Source: Avibacterium paragallinarum
GTDB taxonomy: Bacteria > Pseudomonadota > Gammaproteobacteria > Enterobacterales > Pasteurellaceae
Length of the DNA: 64,000 nucleotides
Assembly: GCF_900450705.1 (NCBI RefSeq)
Contig: NZ_UGHK01000001.1
Coordinates: 1 to 64,000 of the forward strand
Reading direction: 5' to 3'
Part shown: positions 10,146 to 48,130 of the stretch, piece after piece
Numbering within the stretch: the first letter of the stretch is position 1
Layout of the letters: the number at the start of each line of letters is the position of its first letter
Translations under genes and position numbers: made by a program
Notes under the pieces: model-generated
Database searches by the model: none
The model's input: the letters and a program-made list of their open reading frames with translations, nothing else
Told to the model about the DNA's origin: nothing

Positions 10146-10163
10146 AGCAAAAGAAGAAGCGGC

Positions 10164-10193
10164 GATGTGGTAGGCTCTGACCTCTACCACATC
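10164..10193 (+). promoter_or_regulatory. Hairpin upstream of com (copy 1)
   Basis: A perfect 10-bp stem: GATGTGGTAG at 10164-10173 pairs with CTACCACATC at 10184-10193. TAGGCT in the loop side can instead pair with AGCCTA at 10194-10199, so two mutually exclusive folds are possible. It lies about 90 bases upstream of com and is repeated identically at 45346-45375. There is no T-run, so it is not an intrinsic terminator; a role in mRNA stability or control of com is inferred. Confidence 0.5.
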
Positions 10194-10285
10194 AGCCTAA
10201 GCAGATAGCACCTGCATAGACCCGAGACCGCTTTGTCTGACCAGACGGGCGGATTGTAACAAAACCGCGTAAAGTGAGAAAGTTT

Positions 10286-10417
10286 ATGCAAAAAGATTTG
10301 CAAGAAATGCGGTGCAAGTGCTGTAAAAAGCTCCTTGCACGCACAAAAGATAATCAATATTTAGAAATTAAATGTGTGCGGTGTAAAACCTTAAACACAT
10401 TTAAACCTACTCGTTAA
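10286..10417 (+). CDS. com: Com-like zinc finger translational activator
   Basis: 43 residues with two Cys-x2-Cys pairs (CKCC near residue 10 and CVRC near 30), the four-cysteine zinc finger of Mu Com. In Mu, Com binds the mom mRNA and opens the ribosome site so that the DNA-modification gene is translated late. Here com lies just upstream of an adenine methyltransferase gene, as in the Mu-like prophages of Haemophilus where such enzymes replace Mom. An identical protein is encoded at 45468-45599. Confidence 0.8.
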   Translation: MQKDLQEMRCKCCKKLLARTKDNQYLEIKCVRCKTLNTFKPTR

Positions 10418-10484
10418 ACAACTTAAACAACTCAGAGTGTCCGAACGCCTTGAGCGTCAGAACGCCATAATTTAAGGATAAATT
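10418..10484 (+). promoter_or_regulatory. Leader between com and the methyltransferase gene, candidate Com target
   Basis: The 67 bases between com and the next ATG hold CAGAGTGTCCGAACGCCTTGA, AGCGTCAGAACGCC and an AAGGAT ribosome site. The same leader, with one base change and without a 9-base direct repeat (AACTTAAAC), precedes a different gene at 45658. Because the leader is conserved while the downstream genes differ, it is a good candidate for the RNA bound by Com. The two GAACGCC motifs (GAATGCC/GAACGCC in copy 2) could be recognition elements; this is inference. Confidence 0.45.
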
Positions 10485-11339
10485 ATGGCAAATCAAACAA
10501 ATCCTACTCACTATAAACAAGCACCACTGCCTTTCGTTGGGCAAAAACGGCTGTTTTTAAACGCCTTTAAACAGGTTTTAAATGAGCATATTTCTGATGA
10601 TGGGGAGGGGTGGACGATTGTCGATGCTTTTGGAGGAAGTGGTTTATTAAGCCATGTGGCAAAGCGTATCAAGTCCAAAGCACGGGTGATTTATAATGAT
10701 TTTGATGGCTATGCCGACAGGTTAAAACACATAAGCGATACAAATCGTTTACGAGCTGAACTGCTTCAAATTGTTGGCGATATTGTACCCAAAAACAAGC
10801 GATTAGATAACAATAAAAAGCAAGAAATCATCAATAAAATCAATGATTTTAAGGGATTTAAAGACCTCAACACCATTGCAAGTTGGTTGCTTTTCAGTGG
10901 GCAACAAGTCAGCTCATTTGAGGAGCTATTTAGCAAGACATTTTGGAATGGAATAAAGCTGGCTGATTATCCTAGTGCAGAGGATTACCTTGATGGGCTT
11001 GAGATAGTCAGCGAGCCATTTCAACAGCTTCTGCCTAAGTTTGCCGACAACCCTAAAGCCCTGTTTGTGTTAGACTCGCCTTATCTTTGCACCAAGCAAA
11101 ACAGCTATAAAATGGCAAATTATTTTGATTTGATTGATTTCTTGCAGCTTATTGACCGAACACGACCGCCTTATGTGTTTTTTAGCTCCACTAAGTCAGA
11201 GTTTGTGCGGTTTATTGCGTATATGGTGCAGGCGAAAAAGGATAACTGGCAAGCCTTTGATGGAGCTGAGCGGATAGTCCTTCAAACATCGTTAAACTAT
11301 CAGGTTAGCTATGAGGATAATTTGGTGTTTAAATTCTAA
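10485..11339 (+). CDS. DNA adenine methyltransferase, Hin1523/Hia5-like (copy 1)
   Basis: 284 residues. N6-adenine methyltransferase of the D12/Dam-like fold: SAM-binding motif VDAFGGSGLLSH near residue 47 and catalytic motif LDSPYLCTKQ near residue 200, where the usual DPPY is DSPY. Sequence layout (PLPFVGQKRLFLNAFKQVL start, SSTKSEFVRFI near the end) matches the Hin1523/Hia5 group from Mu-like Haemophilus prophages. Characterised members methylate adenines with little or no sequence specificity and take the place of Mom in protecting phage DNA from restriction. The first 17 residues differ from the 46403 copy; from GQKRLF on they are nearly identical. A terminator hairpin follows directly. 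Confidence 0.85.
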   Translation: MANQTNPTHYKQAPLPFVGQKRLFLNAFKQVLNEHISDDGEGWTIVDAFGGSGLLSHVAKRIKSKARVIYNDFDGYADRLKHISDTNRLRAELLQIVGDIVPKNKRLDNNKKQEIINKINDFKGFKDLNTIASWLLFSGQQVSSFEELFSKTFWNGIKLADYPSAEDYLDGLEIVSEPFQQLLPKFADNPKALFVLDSPYLCTKQNSYKMANYFDLIDFLQLIDRTRPPYVFFSSTKSEFVRFIAYMVQAKKDNWQAFDGAERIVLQTSLNYQVSYEDNLVFKF

Positions 11340-11448: not shown

Positions 11449-12167
11449 GGGGCTGTCCTAGATAACAACTAAAAAATCTATTTAGGTTAGAATGAACCAA
11501 TGAGAAAAAGTCGTCTAAGTCAGCACAAACAAAATAAACTCATTGAGCTATTTGTTGCAGGTGTTACTGCAAGGACAGCAGCAGAGTTAGTCAATGTAAA
11601 CAAAACGACTGCCGCATATTACTTTCATCGTTTATGCCAACTCATCTATCAAAACAGCCTTCACTTAGAGATGTTTGAAGGTGAAATTGAAGCCGATGAA
11701 AGTTATTTTGGCGGTGCTCGCAAAGGCAAACGTGGTCGTGGTGCGGCAGGGAAAATTGCGGTATTCGGGCTTCTCAAGCGCAATGGCAAGGTTTATACCG
11801 TTGCGGTTCCAAATACGCAATCTGCCACCTTGTTACCCATTATTCGGGAGCAGGTAAAGCCTGATAGTATTGTTTACACCGATAATTATCGTAGTTATGA
11901 CGTGCTTGATGTGAGTGAATTTAGTCATTTTCGTATCAATCACAGCACACATTTTGCTGAAAATCATAACCACATTAACGGAATTGAGAATTTTTGGAGC
12001 CAAGCAAAACGCCATTTACGAAAATTTAATGGTATCCCAAAAGCGCATTTTGAGCTTTATTTAAAGGAATGTGAATGGCGTTTTAATTACAGCAACATAA
12101 AAAGTCAAATTTCTATTTTAAAACAATTGGTTAAAGGGAGTTTAGTCTAGTTATCTAGGACAGCCCC
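11449..12167 (+). mobile_element. IS1016-like insertion sequence (IS1595 family), 719 bp
   Basis: Ends are perfect 18-bp inverted repeats (GGGGCTGTCCTAGATAAC and its complement). The 8-bp sequence AAAATCTA is present on both sides (11441-11448 and 12168-12175), the target length expected for IS1595-family elements. It carries one transposase gene and no cargo. Size and transposase fit IS1016 of Haemophilus. The empty site is preserved at 47341-47348 in the second block, which proves the insertion boundaries. Confidence 0.95.
11500..12150 (+). CDS. IS1595-family (ISXO2-like) transposase
   Basis: 216 residues. N-terminal helix-turn-helix (GVTARTAAELVNVNKTTAAYY, an HTH around residues 18-40) and an ISXO2-like DDE domain: EADESYFGGARKGKRG holds the first Asp, YTDNYRSYD the second, and NGIENFWSQAKRHL the Glu. 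Full length, with no frameshift, so the element may be active. Starts 51 bp inside the left end and stops 17 bp before the right end. Confidence 0.95.
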   Translation: MRKSRLSQHKQNKLIELFVAGVTARTAAELVNVNKTTAAYYFHRLCQLIYQNSLHLEMFEGEIEADESYFGGARKGKRGRGAAGKIAVFGLLKRNGKVYTVAVPNTQSATLLPIIREQVKPDSIVYTDNYRSYDVLDVSEFSHFRINHSTHFAENHNHINGIENFWSQAKRHLRKFNGIPKAHFELYLKECEWRFNYSNIKSQISILKQLVKGSLV

Positions 12168-12278
12168 AAAATCTAAATGGTCGCTCATTCGGGTTTCTAA
12201 TGTTTCAATATCCCCCACCTCTTTTGCAATGGTTTCTAATATTTTTGCGATGGTTTTTTCAGTTGGTTTTTTCATTGT

Positions 12279-12557
12279 TTATTTCCCTCTTAAAATGTTT
12301 GCGATTTTGTCAGCGATTTGCTGGGCGACAATGTCAAAGTTAGTCTCGATTGAAACGCGTTGGCGACAATGTTCAGAGTGTTCAACCAGCGTGCCTTGTG
12401 GCATATAAAGTAAATAAATTGTTGGCTCATTTTGATAACTATCTTGACGGACTTGAAAGCGGCGTTTCCCTTGCACAAATTCCCTATTTTTAAAGCCGTG
12501 ATGGTTTTCAAGTCTGGTGGTTAAGTGTTGAATAAATTCTCGTGTATTAAATTTCAT
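12279..12557 (-). CDS. Hypothetical phage protein (copy 1)
   Basis: 92 residues, starting MKFNTREFIQHLTTRLEN and ending with the helix DIVAQQIADKIANIL. It is almost identical to the product of 47452-47730 (one substitution, Arg for Gly near residue 24). It precedes the IS-interrupted gene on the minus strand, three bases apart, so the two form an operon. Function unknown; both belong to the accessory genes at the right end of the tail region and are transcribed against it. Confidence 0.6.
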   Translation of the reverse strand: MKFNTREFIQHLTTRLENHHGFKNREFVQGKRRFQVRQDSYQNEPTIYLLYMPQGTLVEHSEHCRQRVSIETNFDIVAQQIADKIANILRGK

Positions 12558-13043
12558 TTTTATGTCCCTGTTGTTTTATGTTGGGGGCATCATTGCTCGT
12601 TGGGGACGAGGAGTAAAGGGGAAATAAGCGGGTAATTAAGCTGGCTGGCTAACAATGTAGCTGGGGAGGTATGGAGGTCTATTTCAGCATCGTTTAAAAG
12701 CGGTTTAAATAGCGTTTAAATATCATAAAAAAATCCACATAACGTGGGAAATTTTTTTCTCAAGTTATGTGGATGCTTTTCTCATTTTTCGCGGACGGCT
12801 TCAATCAGGCGAGGCAACGCCCTTGAGGACGCATTCACCTTTATTGATGTCTAGATCGTTTTCAAAGATCGTGATATTGGTATTAAGGTAGAGAAAGATA
12901 GCTTTTTGCTTAGCGAATATGAATGCCATTTGCAACAGAACACCTTTCAACTTCAAGCCGTGCGATTGCTGGCATTTGAAGATGAGATAGGGATTACCAG
13001 AAATGCAACCTAAGGCTAAAAAGCCTATTTTATTGGAGGGAAT
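12558..13043. other. Junction region between the methyltransferase block and the first integrase
   Basis: No complete gene. The shared block ends at 12681. An 11-bp inverted repeat (12733-12743 with 12764-12774, ATCCACATAAC/GTTATGTGGAT) is followed on the minus strand by seven T and may be a terminator. From 12855 to 13013 a 52-codon open frame without start (FQLQAVRLLAFEDEIGIT near its end) looks like a gene remnant; TAG at 12852-12854 closes it upstream. A small hairpin AGGCT-AAAA-AGCCT with a following T-rich stretch lies at 13013-13026, just before the ribosome site of the next gene. Confidence 0.4.
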
Positions 13044-43989: not shown

Positions 43990-44586
43990 ATGTATTTTTT
44001 TAACAGACTCACACAAGGTTTTTTCCTAGCGGGGATACATGTTATCCCCGAGGGTTCAGTAGAAATTAGCGAAGAAACCTACCGCACTTTACTTATCGGG
44101 CAAAGTGAGGGAAAACAGATTATCCCCGATGAGCGGGGCTATCCCGTTTTGATTGAGCCCCAGCCAAGCCCTTATCACAGATTGCAAGGGGGAAAATGGG
44201 TGATGGATGAGGAGCAAAAAGCCGCTTGGTTAGCTGCACAACAAGCCGAAGTATGGAAAAAAATTAAAGAAGAACGTTATCGTCGCACGCATAGTGGGGT
44301 GTATGTTGCGAGTGTGAATAAATGGTTTCACACCGATGAGGTAAGTCGCCAACAATATACCTTTATGCGGACATTACCCAGTTTTCCTGAAACGCAATGG
44401 AAAACAATGGATAACAGTTTTGTATTGATGAATGAGGCATTATTAGACCAGCTAGCATTAACGCTAATGCAACAAGAGCAAGCCAATTTTGACAACGCTG
44501 AAAAGCACCGCTTGGCGATGTTGGCGGTGGATAACCCGTTAGATTATGACTACAGCACAGGCTGGCAGGAGGTTTATCATGGATAA
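43990..44586 (+). CDS. Tail fibre assembly protein (prophage 2)
   Basis: 198 residues. FFNRLTQGFFLAGIHVIPEG at the start, then the chaperone helix EVWKKIKEERYRRTHSGVYV and a DYDYSTGWQEVYHG end, which pairs with the DYSIGW-like end of the other assembly protein. It acts on the fibre upstream. Overlaps the next gene by eight bases. Confidence 0.82.
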   Translation: MYFFNRLTQGFFLAGIHVIPEGSVEISEETYRTLLIGQSEGKQIIPDERGYPVLIEPQPSPYHRLQGGKWVMDEEQKAAWLAAQQAEVWKKIKEERYRRTHSGVYVASVNKWFHTDEVSRQQYTFMRTLPSFPETQWKTMDNSFVLMNEALLDQLALTLMQQEQANFDNAEKHRLAMLAVDNPLDYDYSTGWQEVYHG

Positions 44587-45077
44587 TCGAGTTTATTTAG
44601 CTCTCTATAAAGGCAACCGCAGTGGCAAAGGTTTTGCCGTGCTTAAAGCCAAATTAGGTGACTGGCTCACTCGTAAGCTCACTAAAGGCCAATACTCCCA
44701 TTGTGAGATTGCCGTTGCTCGGCGTGAGTGGCTAAGTGGTCATCATTATGACCACGAGATTGTTTACGACTGTTACAGCTCATCAATCCGAGATGGTGGG
44801 GTGCGTTGCAAGCAGATTGACCTTGATAACGGCAAGTGGGATTTAATTCCGCTTTATGGGGTCGATGAGGCTAAAGTTAAGGGATATTTTTGGCAAACTA
44901 AAGATAAAAAATACGACTGGTTAGGGGCGTTAGGGATTGTGTTATTTACCCCGCAAGCACGCGACAAATTTTTTTTGCAGTGAGTGGTGTGCAAATGCGA
45001 TTAATGGCGGTGATGAGGGCTGGCGGTTTAGTCCAAATCATTTAGCGGCAATTTTTAAATTAAAACATAAGGAGTAA
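44579..45077 (+). pseudogene. Papain-like (NlpC/P60-type) cysteine hydrolase, frameshifted at T8
   Basis: ATG 44579 after GGAGG. The frame gives YLALYKGNRSGKGFAVLKAK, a His motif GQYSHCEIAVARREW, YDCYSSSIRDGGVRCKQIDL and YDWLGALGIVLF, the pattern of phage permuted papain-like hydrolases. At eight T (44969-44976) the frame runs to TGA at 44983. With seven T it would continue FFCSEWCANAINGGDEGWRF to TAA 45075-45077, restoring the C-S-E-W-C motif with a candidate catalytic Cys. Tract-length change would switch the gene on or off. Substrate unknown. Confidence 0.7.
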
Positions 45078-45084
45078 ATTGTAG

Positions 45085-45315
45085 ATGAAAGGAAATCTAA
45101 CATTTGGACAAAAAGCAGTAGGATTAACTTTTAATCCTGATAATAACGATGAAGTGACAAAGTGCAAACGGCTTTATGCGGATATCATTGATCAACTTAA
45201 TGAGTTACGTAACTCAACAAATATACTAGAGGTTAAGCGTTTAGCCAGCGTGGCAATCACTGAAGCACAAACCGCTCAAATGTGGAGTGTAAAAGCGATT
45301 ACTTACAAAGATTGA
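45085..45315 (+). CDS. Acb2/Tad1-like small phage protein, candidate cyclic-nucleotide sponge
   Basis: 76 residues after AAGGAG. The middle and end (KRLYADIIDQLNELRN, then RLASVAITEAQTAQMWSVKAIT) show the two-helix hairpin with the A-I-T-x-A-x-T-A-Q-M-W-x-V-K-A pattern that I associate with the Acb2/Tad1 hairpin family. Characterised members bind cyclic oligonucleotides or cADPR-like signals and block CBASS or Thoeris. The family link is from memory of the motif and not confirmed; Tad1 or Acb2 activity is unproven. It lies between tail-fibre and DNA-modification genes, a usual anti-defence position. Confidence 0.5.
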   Translation: MKGNLTFGQKAVGLTFNPDNNDEVTKCKRLYADIIDQLNELRNSTNILEVKRLASVAITEAQTAQMWSVKAITYKD

Positions 45316-45345
45316 GAATGTAACAAGTAAACATAAAGAAGCGGC

Positions 45346-45375
45346 GATGTGGTAGGCTCTGACCTCTACCACATC
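45346..45375 (+). promoter_or_regulatory. Hairpin upstream of com (copy 2)
   Basis: Same stem as at 10164-10193: GATGTGGTAG (45346-45355) and CTACCACATC (45366-45375), with the competing TAGGCT/AGCCTA pair. The conservation of both pairings in the two prophages supports a role in the RNA, though the copies are too similar to show covariation. Confidence 0.5.
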
Positions 45376-45467
45376 AGCCTAAGCAGATAGCACCTGCATA
45401 GACCCGAGACCGCTTTGTCTGACCAGACGGACGGATTGTAACAAAACCGCGTAAAGTGAGAAAGTCT

Positions 45468-45599
45468 ATGCAAAAAGATTTGCAAGAAATGCGGTGCAAG
45501 TGCTGTAAAAAGCTCCTTGCACGCACAAAAGATAATCAATATTTAGAAATTAAATGTGTGCGGTGTAAAACCTTAAACACATTTAAACCTACTCGTTAA
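45468..45599 (+). CDS. com: Com-like zinc finger translational activator (copy 2)
   Basis: 43 residues, same sequence as at 10286-10417, with two Cys-x2-Cys pairs. It precedes two methyltransferase genes here. By analogy with Mu Com it would allow late translation of the gene that follows the leader at 45600-45657. Confidence 0.8.
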   Translation: MQKDLQEMRCKCCKKLLARTKDNQYLEIKCVRCKTLNTFKPTR

Positions 45600-45657
45600 A
45601 CAACTCAGAGTGTCCGAATGCCTTGAGCGTCAGAACGCCATAATTTAAGGATAAATT
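45600..45657 (+). promoter_or_regulatory. Leader between com and the C5 methyltransferase gene
   Basis: 58 bases that repeat the leader before the adenine methyltransferase of copy 1 (10418-10484), including GAGCGTCAGAACGCC and the AAGGAT ribosome site, and even the first bases of the gene (ATGGCAAA). The downstream gene is different here. It is the candidate Com-binding RNA. Confidence 0.45.
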
Positions 45658-46416
45658 ATGGCAAACAAGAAAATCATTGTTTGGGCGTTATTTGATAGCG
45701 GCAACGGCTGCTATACCCAAGCAGCAAAAGCATTTCGCAATATTAAAATCTATCCTATCGGCATTGATATTGAGCGTAAAAATCGGCATTTTCTACCGCT
45801 GAATTTAGCGGATTTTGGGCGGTTGTTTGGTGATAAAACCCTGTTTAATAAGCTAGATAGCCTCCCTAAACCCGATGTCATTTTAGCCAGTCCGCCTTGT
45901 GAGAGTTTTTCCGTTGCCAACTCTATTAAGGGCGGGAATGTCTGTTGGCAATGGCAGGGAAATACACGCTTTGCTATTCGTCGTCGCAAAGATTTTGACG
46001 CGGCAGCGGTTAAAAAGCGACGTTATCGTTATGAGACCTCTTTTTTAAATCGAATTAATGGTGAGCTTTGCATTTATAACACCATTGAGATTATTAAACG
46101 GTATCAGCCGAAAATTTATGTGATTGAAAACCCTTATGCGAGCCGCCTTTGGCACTATCTTGATGAGATTTTAGCCTTTCCTCTTCCTTATGCGAACCCT
46201 ACCTATTATGGGAATTATGGCTGGCCCTGCAAAAAGGCGACTAAGTTTAAAAGCAATATTCCGCTAAATTTGCGTTATCAGCATTATATTTCGGGCAAAA
46301 CGATGTTTGACTGTTTACACAGTTATAACGCCCGTTCAGCCATTCCGTTGCCGCTTATCCACGATATTTATCGTCGTATTATTGAGGTATTAGGGGGTAA
46401 CGATGCGTCATTTTAA
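45658..46416 (+). CDS. DNA cytosine-5 methyltransferase-like protein
   Basis: 252 residues. C5-methyltransferase motifs: F-x-G-x-G-like ALFDSGNGCYTQAAKAF at the N-terminus (motif I), the catalytic PPCESFS near residue 80 (motif IV, Pro-Cys) and YVIENPYASRLW (motif VI, E-N). It is short, with little target-recognition region, so the site is not evident. It overlaps the adenine methyltransferase by 14 bases, so the two are translated together. Absent from the block copy in prophage 1. Confidence 0.75.
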   Translation: MANKKIIVWALFDSGNGCYTQAAKAFRNIKIYPIGIDIERKNRHFLPLNLADFGRLFGDKTLFNKLDSLPKPDVILASPPCESFSVANSIKGGNVCWQWQGNTRFAIRRRKDFDAAAVKKRRYRYETSFLNRINGELCIYNTIEIIKRYQPKIYVIENPYASRLWHYLDEILAFPLPYANPTYYGNYGWPCKKATKFKSNIPLNLRYQHYISGKTMFDCLHSYNARSAIPLPLIHDIYRRIIEVLGGNDASF

Positions 46417-47239
46417 TCAAGCACCGTTGCCGTTTGTCGGGCAAAAACGGCTGTTTTTAAACGCCTTTAAACAGGTTTTAAATGAGCATATTTCTGATGA
46501 TGGGGAGGGGTGGACGATTGTCGATGCTTTTGGAGGAAGTGGTTTATTAAGCCATGTGGCAAAGCGTATCAAGTCCAAAGCACGGGTGATTTATAATGAT
46601 TTTGATGGCTATGCCGACAGGTTAAAACACATAAGCGATACAAATCGTTTACGAGCTGAACTGCTTCAAATTGTTGGCGATATTGTACCCAAAAACAAGC
46701 GATTAGATAACAATAAAAAGCAAGAAATCATCAATAAAATCAATGATTTTAAGGGATTTAAAGACCTCAACACCATTGCAAGTTGGTTGCTTTTCAGTGG
46801 GCAACAAGTCAGCTCATTTGAGGAGCTATTTAGCAAGACATTTTGGAATGGAATAAAGCTGGCTGATTATCCTAGTGCAGAGGATTACCTTGATGGGCTT
46901 GAGATAGTCAGCGAGCCATTTCAACAGCTTCTGCCTAAGTTTGCCGACAACCCTAAAGCCCTGTTTGTGTTAGACTCGCCTTATCTTTGCACCAAGCAAA
47001 ACAGCTATAAAATGGCAAATTATTTTGATTTGATTGATTTCTTGCAGCTTATTGACCGAACACGACCGCCTTATGTGTTTTTTAGCTCCACTAAGTCAGA
47101 GTTTGTGCGGTTTATTGCGTATATGGTGCAGGCGAAAAAGGATAACTGGCAAGCCTTTGATGGAGCTGAGCGGATAGTCCTTCAAACATCGTTAAACTAT
47201 CAGGTTAGCTATGAGGATAATTTGGTGCTTAAATTCTAA
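46403..47239 (+). CDS. DNA adenine methyltransferase, Hin1523/Hia5-like (copy 2)
   Basis: 278 residues. Same enzyme as at 10485 except for the first residues (MRHFNQAPLPFVGQKR) and one substitution at the end (LVLKF instead of LVFKF). Motifs VDAFGGSGLLSH and LDSPYLCTKQ are intact. Both copies are open, so the cell has two doses of a low-specificity adenine methyltransferase, if expressed. Followed by the same terminator. Confidence 0.85.
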   Translation: MRHFNQAPLPFVGQKRLFLNAFKQVLNEHISDDGEGWTIVDAFGGSGLLSHVAKRIKSKARVIYNDFDGYADRLKHISDTNRLRAELLQIVGDIVPKNKRLDNNKKQEIINKINDFKGFKDLNTIASWLLFSGQQVSSFEELFSKTFWNGIKLADYPSAEDYLDGLEIVSEPFQQLLPKFADNPKALFVLDSPYLCTKQNSYKMANYFDLIDFLQLIDRTRPPYVFFSSTKSEFVRFIAYMVQAKKDNWQAFDGAERIVLQTSLNYQVSYEDNLVLKF

Positions 47240-47245
47240 AAATTA

Positions 47246-47261
47246 AGGGGCTAACGCCCCT
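47246..47261. terminator. Hairpin terminator after the methyltransferase gene (copy 2)
   Basis: AGGGGC-TAAC-GCCCCT followed by ATTTTT, the same as at 11346-11361, between convergent genes. The stop codon of the reverse gene lies at its edge. Confidence 0.8.
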
Positions 47262-47448
47262 ATTTTTCAATGCCCGCCTTATAGCCTGCCTCATAAGCCG
47301 CACGCATAAGGCGTTTGATATTCCACACGCCCATATCATAAAAATCTAAATGGTCGCTCATTCGGGTTTCTAATGTTTCAATATCCCCCACCTCTTTTGC
47401 AATGGTTTCTAATATTTTTGCGATGGTTTTTTCAGTTGGTTTTTTCAT
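47260..47448 (-). CDS. Small phage protein (DUF6900-like), intact copy
   Basis: 62 residues: KILETIAKEVGDIETLETRM, then SDHLDFYDMGVWNIKRLMRA and AAYEAGYKAGIEK. The pattern E-T-x-x-S-D-x-L-D-F-x-D-x-x-V-W-x-I is that of a small family seen in many phages and plasmids (DUF6900), function unknown. Second gene of a reverse pair. The same gene in copy 1 is split by the IS. Confidence 0.6.
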   Translation of the reverse strand: MKKPTEKTIAKILETIAKEVGDIETLETRMSDHLDFYDMGVWNIKRLMRAAYEAGYKAGIEK

Positions 47449-47451
47449 TGT

Positions 47452-47730
47452 TTATTTCCCTCTTAAAATGTTTGCGATTTTGTCAGCGATTTGCTGGGCG
47501 ACAATGTCAAAGTTAGTCTCGATTGAAACGCGTTGGCGACAATGTTCAGAGTGTTCAACCAGCGTGCCTTGTGGCATATAAAGTAAATAAATTGTTGGCT
47601 CATTTTGATAACTATCTTGACGGACTTGAAAGCGGCGTTTCCCTTGCACAAATTCCCCATTTTTAAAGCCGTGATGGTTTTCAAGTCTGGTGGTTAAGTG
47701 TTGAATAAATTCTCGTGTATTAAATTTCAT
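47452..47730 (-). CDS. Hypothetical phage protein (copy 2)
   Basis: 92 residues from ATG 47730 (MKFNTREFIQHLTTRLEN). Same as the product of 12279-12557 with Gly for Arg near residue 24. Mixed alpha/beta (VRQDSYQNEPTIYLLYMPQG). First gene of the reverse pair. Function unknown. Confidence 0.6.
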   Translation of the reverse strand: MKFNTREFIQHLTTRLENHHGFKNGEFVQGKRRFQVRQDSYQNEPTIYLLYMPQGTLVEHSEHCRQRVSIETNFDIVAQQIADKIANILRGK

Positions 47731-48130
47731 TTTTATGTCCCTGTTGTTTTGTGTTGGGGGCATCATTGCTCGTTGGGGACGAGGAGTAAAGGGGAAATAA
47801 GCAGTAGTTAAGCCGACTGACTAACAATGTAGCTGGGGAGGTATGGAGGTCTAAATGATAAAAAATTTGAAATAATTTTGCATAATCTGAGACTCAATAG
47901 CTATGCAAAATAAATTTAAATTTTATGCGAAATGTTTTGCGATTTTATATATTTCCTATGATACAGAATCAGTAATACTAACTTATTCTGACTTGGTATA
48001 TAATAAACGGGAAAGATATTATGTTTTATCACTCGCTATTACTTACAGTGTTCACTGGTTAAGTCGATGTTTGTTTTAGCATTTGAATGTAGCGGGTGCT
48101 AGATTTAAATGTGCATTATCTAACGTATTG
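47731..48130. other. Right boundary of the prophage region
   Basis: The shared block ends at 47853; from there to cysK the sequence is AT-rich with no gene that I can support. It should contain the phage-chromosome junction, but no tRNA-Leu sequence and no copy of the 58-bp core are present. A TATAATA-like box (47997-48004) occurs but no gene follows it. Confidence 0.5.

Follow-up and report, generated by a model that had tools for sequence, protein, structure and literature searches.

What is the role of a 76-codon gene lodged between the tail genes and the DNA methyltransferase genes of a prophage in Avibacterium paragallinarum? The reading frame lies at 45085..45315 on the forward strand of the 64,000-nucleotide stretch of DNA analysed here (the window), starts with an ATG 7 bases past the stop codon of the preceding reading frame, and is preceded by AAGGAG, a ribosome-site-like sequence that, read directly, ends 10 bases before the ATG. 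The original prediction singled out this frame by an A-I-T-x-A-x-T-A-Q-M-W-x-V-K-A pattern, which is found at residues 57-71 of the 76-residue product, and saw in it a sponge of the Acb2/Tad1 type, directed against CBASS or Thoeris and situated upstream of a com/methyltransferase module. The placement is as described, with com and two methyltransferase-like genes following downstream on the same strand. The reading favoured here, to which we assign a probability of about 0.7, is that the protein is an Acb2-type sponge, encoded by an accessory (moron) gene of an HP1/P2-like prophage.

Family membership and predicted fold

Membership of the 76-aa protein in the Acb2/Tad1 hairpin family, as proposed in the original prediction, is well supported, and the Pfam profile bears it out. 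The model PF24729, "Acb2/Tad1, hairpin domain", is matched at 38.4 bits (E 1.5e-9) against a curated cut-off of 27 bits; the same model scores two known sponges, T4 Vs.4 (Acb2) and PaP2 Acb2, at 70.3 and 65.3 bits. None of ten scrambled versions of the protein (nine shuffles and the reversed sequence) matched PF24729, and three of them gave weak, sub-threshold matches to other families. At E<=0.001 the model was absent from all 14 control genomes; at E<=10 it gave matches in 10 of them, none above the cut-off. All 14 members of the first alignment of relatives matched it at E<=0.01. Judged by profile scoring, then, the match is more than chance. PHROG, a clustering independent of Pfam, places the protein (38 bits) in phrog_717 together with T4 Acb2 (114 bits) and PaP2 Acb2 (115 bits), and this family was missed by one of the seven proteins given, the Providencia PS3 relative.

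Profile-profile comparison with PaP2-type Acb2 gave a local probability of 95.8 and an E of 6.6e-9 for this one comparison, with columns 46-73 falling on 61-88 and the match covering the second helix, and a global probability of 89.5. Against T4-type Acb2 the probabilities were 23.9 (local) and 1.2 (global), on a scale where T4-type against PaP2-type Acb2 reaches 97.9. Searches of the PDB sequences with phmmer yielded no convincing match for the protein (best E 0.038, a designed protein) or for its relative in Pasteurella phage Pmp11 (best E 1.2). In the PDB, T4 Vs.4 was reached at E 0.11 with a profile of 14 rows, at E 0.039 with 66 rows and at E 0.033 with 10 rows; unrelated chains outranked it for the 14-row and 10-row profiles. 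An NCBIfam match at 12.6 bits, against a cut-off of 60, was rejected, and none of the PADLOC models matched the protein.

An AlphaFold2 monomer model built with a 66-sequence alignment (pLDDT 95.5, pTM 0.84) contains a short helix at residues 7-11, two long antiparallel helices at 22-44 and 48-73, and no strand; a structure from the single sequence without an alignment had a pLDDT of 58.8 and was uninformative. The predicted helix layout is the same as that published for Acb2, where a short N-terminal helix is followed by two long antiparallel helices (PMC10419184, in the portion consulted). The BFVD search returned two matches at E<=0.001, both named Acb2/Tad1 hairpin proteins and both at E 3.4e-4. 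The family assignment of the original prediction thus finds further support in phrog_717, in the profile-profile match to PaP2-type Acb2 and in the predicted fold. Of the known sponges with solved structures, T4 Vs.4 with cGAMP aligned best in VIA-align (Z 7.2, rmsd 2.4, 60 residues), and the Acb2-cGAMP complex 8h2j scored Z 5.2. Because helical proteins unrelated to the family score as high as Acb2 or higher in these alignments, up to Z 7.5, the match to solved structures is one of agreement and not of proof. Foldseek found nothing in the PDB at E<=0.001 and no Acb2/Tad1 chain among the best 50 matches listed, even though chains of this kind did come up in VIA-align; the PDB fold match of the model is thus not specific.

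The likeness to characterised Acb2 proteins is accompanied by clear differences. The PaP2/PaMx33-type Acb2 of a Pseudomonas phage (8H2J) belongs to the same Pfam and PHROG families, is of similar size (93 aa against 76 here), likewise has a short N-terminal helix and two long helices, and aligns column by column over its C-terminal helix; however, it carries QHxKIxGYRxL near its N-terminus where the window protein has GxKxVGxxFNP, and has Arg at the position of Lys70. Acb2 of T4 (Vs.4, 7UQ2) also belongs to these families and is the closest known sponge by structure alignment, but at 88 aa it has a longer hairpin, and its direct sequence link to the window protein, the E of 0.039 obtained with the 66-row profile, is weak.

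A widespread branch with its own signature

Relatives of the protein form a branch with the signature GxKxVGxxFNP...AQMWxVKA, the N-terminal part of which is absent from T4-type and PaP2-type Acb2. Across 72 distinct sequences, the window protein included, Q65, M66, W67, V69, K70 and A71 are invariant, in a sample most of which was chosen with patterns containing the AQMWxVKA motif itself. A less selected set of 10 sequences, seven of them phage homologues from plain tblastn, likewise shows no variation at M66, W67, V69 or K70, and on this alignment evidence AQMWxVKA is a true family signature. The number of invariant columns is 13 in 66 sequences and 11 in the less selected ten. Conservation was counted over 72 distinct rows, drawn from 86 loci and the window protein after removal of duplicates and trimming of N-terminal extensions. 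In the first alignment, some rows start a few codons ahead of the likely start. Providencia phage PSTCR8lys also has a relative, which was not aligned since it matched in two separate pieces.

A tblastn match (E limit 0.01) was obtained in 158 phage records, 146 of which are Flavobacterium phages, and a conserved-pattern scan of viral contigs confirmed at least 576 stretches among the first 600 candidates; because that scan selected by conserved patterns, conservation is biased upwards. Even so, the degree of conservation in this pattern-selected sample is unusual for an arms-race protein. Three plasmid records carry relatives, and a single-sequence scan of genome contigs, a mode that reaches close relatives only, confirmed one of 75 stretches. 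Within the host family the gene occurs in two of 140 genomes, the window's own and one other, and in the latter it sits among genes that we take to be head-morphogenesis-like. The relatives in Pasteurella phage Pmp11, EcP1, Providencia PS3 and Flavobacterium columnare phages, which are 41-73% identical to the window protein, are annotated as hypothetical proteins and have no function in their records, and they differ in host and in genome position; the PS3 relative is named an Acb2/Tad1 hairpin protein in BFVD. Positions in the phage genomes include the lysis/terminase boundary, a region with a putative ssDNA-binding protein gene, and the virion genes.

No constant gene partner was found among the neighbours of 68 distinct loci. 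A simple ORF caller gave 66 upstream and 66 downstream ORFs, of which 57 and 55 were scanned; two near-duplicates, two downstream ORFs on the same strand and 16 calls on the opposite strand that were considered spurious were excluded. The commonest neighbour PHROG accounted for 4 of the 57 upstream and 2 of the 55 downstream ORFs. Upstream neighbours lie on the same strand in 56 of 66 cases, and the median gap over all 66 is 19.5 bases. Such diversity of neighbours fits a self-sufficient accessory gene that is read with the genes around it.

In the literature searched, no paper was found that discusses the branch under DUF7681 (which we take to be a name of the family), PF24729 or "Acb2 Tad1". 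The family is known; this large, conserved and widespread branch of it looks uncharacterised, which gives it a wider interest. Acb2 is called relatively rare and limited to specific phage groups in the Acb4 preprint, as far as the excerpt of PMC11722364 goes. Since this branch alone supplies at least 576 stretches, its ligand would bear on how common such counter-defence is. A sponge function would have consequences for Panoptes as well, since Acb2-type sponges trigger that defence, according to extracts of PMC12657218 and PMC12657230. A tentative suggestion, which we regard as rather doubtful, is that the hairpin sponges of the GxKxVGxxFNP...AQMWxVKA branch are a separate class, very common, whose pocket and choice of ligand are their own. 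Were this true, phages would carry hairpin-fold nucleotide sponges as routine cargo, in contrast to the rarity described for Acb2 proteins, and strong conservation would imply that one widely shared signal is targeted.

Pocket residues, possible targets and competing readings

A sponge function is probable for the 76-aa protein, on the strength of its family and of conserved basic residues. K70 aligns in profile alignments with R79 of T4 and R85 of PaP2, both of which are conserved, and K28 aligns with K23 of T4 and K26 of PaP2, lysines that presumably act at the nucleotide, in global alignments of probability 1.2 and 89.5, respectively. Both K28 and K70 are invariant in the 72 distinct sequences and in the less selected ten. 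M66 falls on M75 (T4) and M81 (PaP2), the MW pair at 66-67 falling on M75-W76 of T4, and T59 falls on T68 (T4) and T74 (PaP2). In T4 Acb2, F82 stacks on the bound dinucleotide, as described in the part of PMC12657218 consulted, binding is disrupted by Y8A, and a lower affinity is reported for T68M (extracts of PMC12657218 and PMC12657230). The T68 column holds Thr in 4 of 27 T4-type rows, so the conserved T59 tells little, and F82 falls on T73 of the window protein. The Pfam start register and the T4 global alignment both make F16 the counterpart of T4 Y8. In the PHROG and VIA registers the counterpart lies two to three residues away from F16, and the PaP2 global alignment puts PaP2 Y11, the equivalent of Y8 by alignment, on K2; match ends, with no gaps assumed there, gave the Pfam, PHROG and structure registers. 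Because these registers disagree, the aromatic pocket residue of Acb2 has no settled position in the protein.

How such a sponge might serve the phage can be set out as follows. Genes at the right end of the prophage would be read during lytic development, and the 76-aa product would fold, as the model supports, into a short N-terminal helix and a long helical hairpin that probably assembles into an Acb2-like hexamer. The hexamer would trap cyclic di- or tri-nucleotides from host cyclases in pockets that use the conserved basic residues K28 and K70, at positions suggested by alignment. Trapping would starve CBASS effectors, or effectors of type III CRISPR and related systems that act on the same signals, abortive infection would thereby be prevented, and the neighbouring methyltransferases would shield the same phage DNA from restriction. 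Should the protein bind cyclic nucleotides, a testable function would be at hand for a large family of small genes that the phage records named above list as hypothetical, and the right end of the prophage could be seen as one compact package acting on nucleotide-signalling defence and on restriction alike.

By the domain models tried, neither a CBASS domain (SMODS, DncV-like or AGS_C) nor ThsB_TIR nor a Cas10 palm domain is present in the genome that carries the window. Counted over all 140 host-family genomes, SMODS is present in 8 (7 above the cut-off), DncV-like in 3, ThsB_TIR in 12 and Cas10 in 14, and one genome of the same genus as the host (G027) has both ThsB_TIR and Cas10. Thus, by the models SMODS, DncV-like, AGS_C, ThsB_TIR and Cas10, potential targets exist among the neighbours of the host and not in the host itself.

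The main rival to the sponge reading is a non-defence role for this very conserved hairpin, which would be kept for some other phage function, such as binding a protein partner or a housekeeping nucleotide like NAD or ppGpp, and not for countering CBASS-type defence. The strong conservation across very different phages, as counted in the invariant columns above, speaks for such a role, as do the GxKxVGxxFNP motif that T4-type and PaP2-type Acb2 lack and a host devoid of CBASS, ThsB and Cas10 domains by the models tried. However, no constant neighbour marks a fixed phage machine, the genome positions range from the lysis/terminase boundary to the virion genes, no partner domain is present, and the characterised founders of the family are sponges; on balance another function is unlikely, though it is the best placed of the alternatives.

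A Tad1-like sponge for gcADPR, acting mainly against Thoeris, is a good deal less probable still. The Pfam model is common to Acb2 and Tad1, the Tad1 of a Clostridium botulinum prophage (7UAV) shares the hairpin domain and aligns with the model at Z 5.1 over residues 26-76, and ThsB_TIR, though not found in the host genome, occurs in the host family and in the same genus. In Tad1 protomers, however, a beta-sheet lies at the N-terminus and four conserved loops line the pocket (PMC12043709, in the part consulted), whereas the window protein is modelled without strands, its hairpin starting at residue 22. We infer that the four pocket loops of Tad1 belong to its beta-sheet; since the 76-aa model has no N-terminal beta-sheet, a gcADPR pocket of the Tad1 kind is not expected and Thoeris is the less likely target. 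The case for Thoeris, one of the two defences originally named, is weakened by the all-helical model.

The prophage right end and its copies

The Acb2-type sponge favoured here would be encoded within an ordered set of forward-strand genes: tail fibre and assembly genes, an amidase-like gene, the sponge candidate, com and two methyltransferase genes. The tail fibre assembly-like gene (43990..44586) matches phrog_2837, a tail protein family, at 252 bits, and PF14301. Downstream of the sponge candidate, a Com-like zinc-ribbon translational regulator of 43 aa, read from an internal ATG (45468..45599), matches phrog_6417 and PF10122 (32 bits against a cut-off of 22.9). The first methyltransferase (45658..46416, 252 aa), of the C5-cytosine type by label, matches phrog_2882 at 354 bits and PF00145 at 28.2 bits (cut-off 22) over residues 57-92 only. 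The second (46403..47239, 278 aa), of the D12 N6-adenine type by label, matches the PADLOC model PDLC03268 MTase_II at 463 bits and phrog_56 at 141 bits, with PF02086 at 17.1 bits falling under its cut-off of 22. A terminator-like inverted repeat, present on both strands at 47246..47261, lies past this gene; it comes from a consensus scan that gave 5 rows in 4 kb against 3.8 expected and is weak on its own. The order of these genes on one strand, with com, both methyltransferase genes and the terminator-like site at 47246-47261, is as an anti-defence island at the right end would have it, and that role for the sponge candidate and methyltransferases is plausible. Here com is followed by methyltransferase genes and not by mom, and Com may have been put to a new use as a translational regulator.

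In a megablast of a 23-kb query, HP1 was matched with 77% identity over 5% and HP2 with 75% over 3%, and the order of the putative integrase, terminase, capsid and tail genes fits the HP1/P2-like type. On these grounds, the megablast matches to HP1 and HP2 and the gene order, the prophage was not taken to be Mu-like.

The module from about 44965 to 47853 is present in five copies in the 2.86-Mb genome (G000), the other four (C2:37479, C2:983740, C3:83762 and C3:131008) being at least 99.4% identical to that in the window. The sponge candidate gene is nucleotide-identical in all five and the upstream sequence differs between some of them, pointing to recent spread of the module or to homogenisation among prophages. 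That the gene is a decayed or unexpressed remnant, as the interrupted gene directly upstream might suggest, is highly improbable given these five identical copies, the presence of the same 76-aa protein in L011-L013 and of a 97% identical open frame in L014, and the retention by the window protein of the residues invariant in the other 71 sequences.

The interrupted gene itself (44579..45077, forward strand) is in two parts, 44579-44983 and 44937-45077, both of which match phrog_1128, and we take it to be amidase-like from the look of YSHCE in the first part and of FCSEWC in the second. The phrog_1128 label 'enoyl-CoA hydratase' is a poor fit for the 44579-44980 gene, and the relatives in SuMu and Pasteurella phage Pm86 carry an amidase-like label. 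The frame is broken at a T run (44969-44976) in the window and in three more of the five copies; in the fifth (L002) the gene is cut by an inserted element, and uninterrupted copies occur in L012-L014.

A second prophage end in the window, extending to about 12.7 kb, has com and an adenine-type methyltransferase gene in the same order and a different sequence at the position of the sponge candidate, so that this slot is exchangeable. Between the two ends, com and its leader (45336-45675 and 10154-10503) are 95.7% identical. A direct repeat of about 512 bp (12168-12681 and 47341-47853; 98.4% identical) recurs about one prophage length apart, at the right ends of the two neighbouring prophages, which points to related prophages in tandem or to an attachment region common to both. 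An element of about 723 bp (11449-12171), with an ORF at 11500-12150 that is presumably transposase-like, splits a DUF6900-like gene and recurs in L240 and L241.
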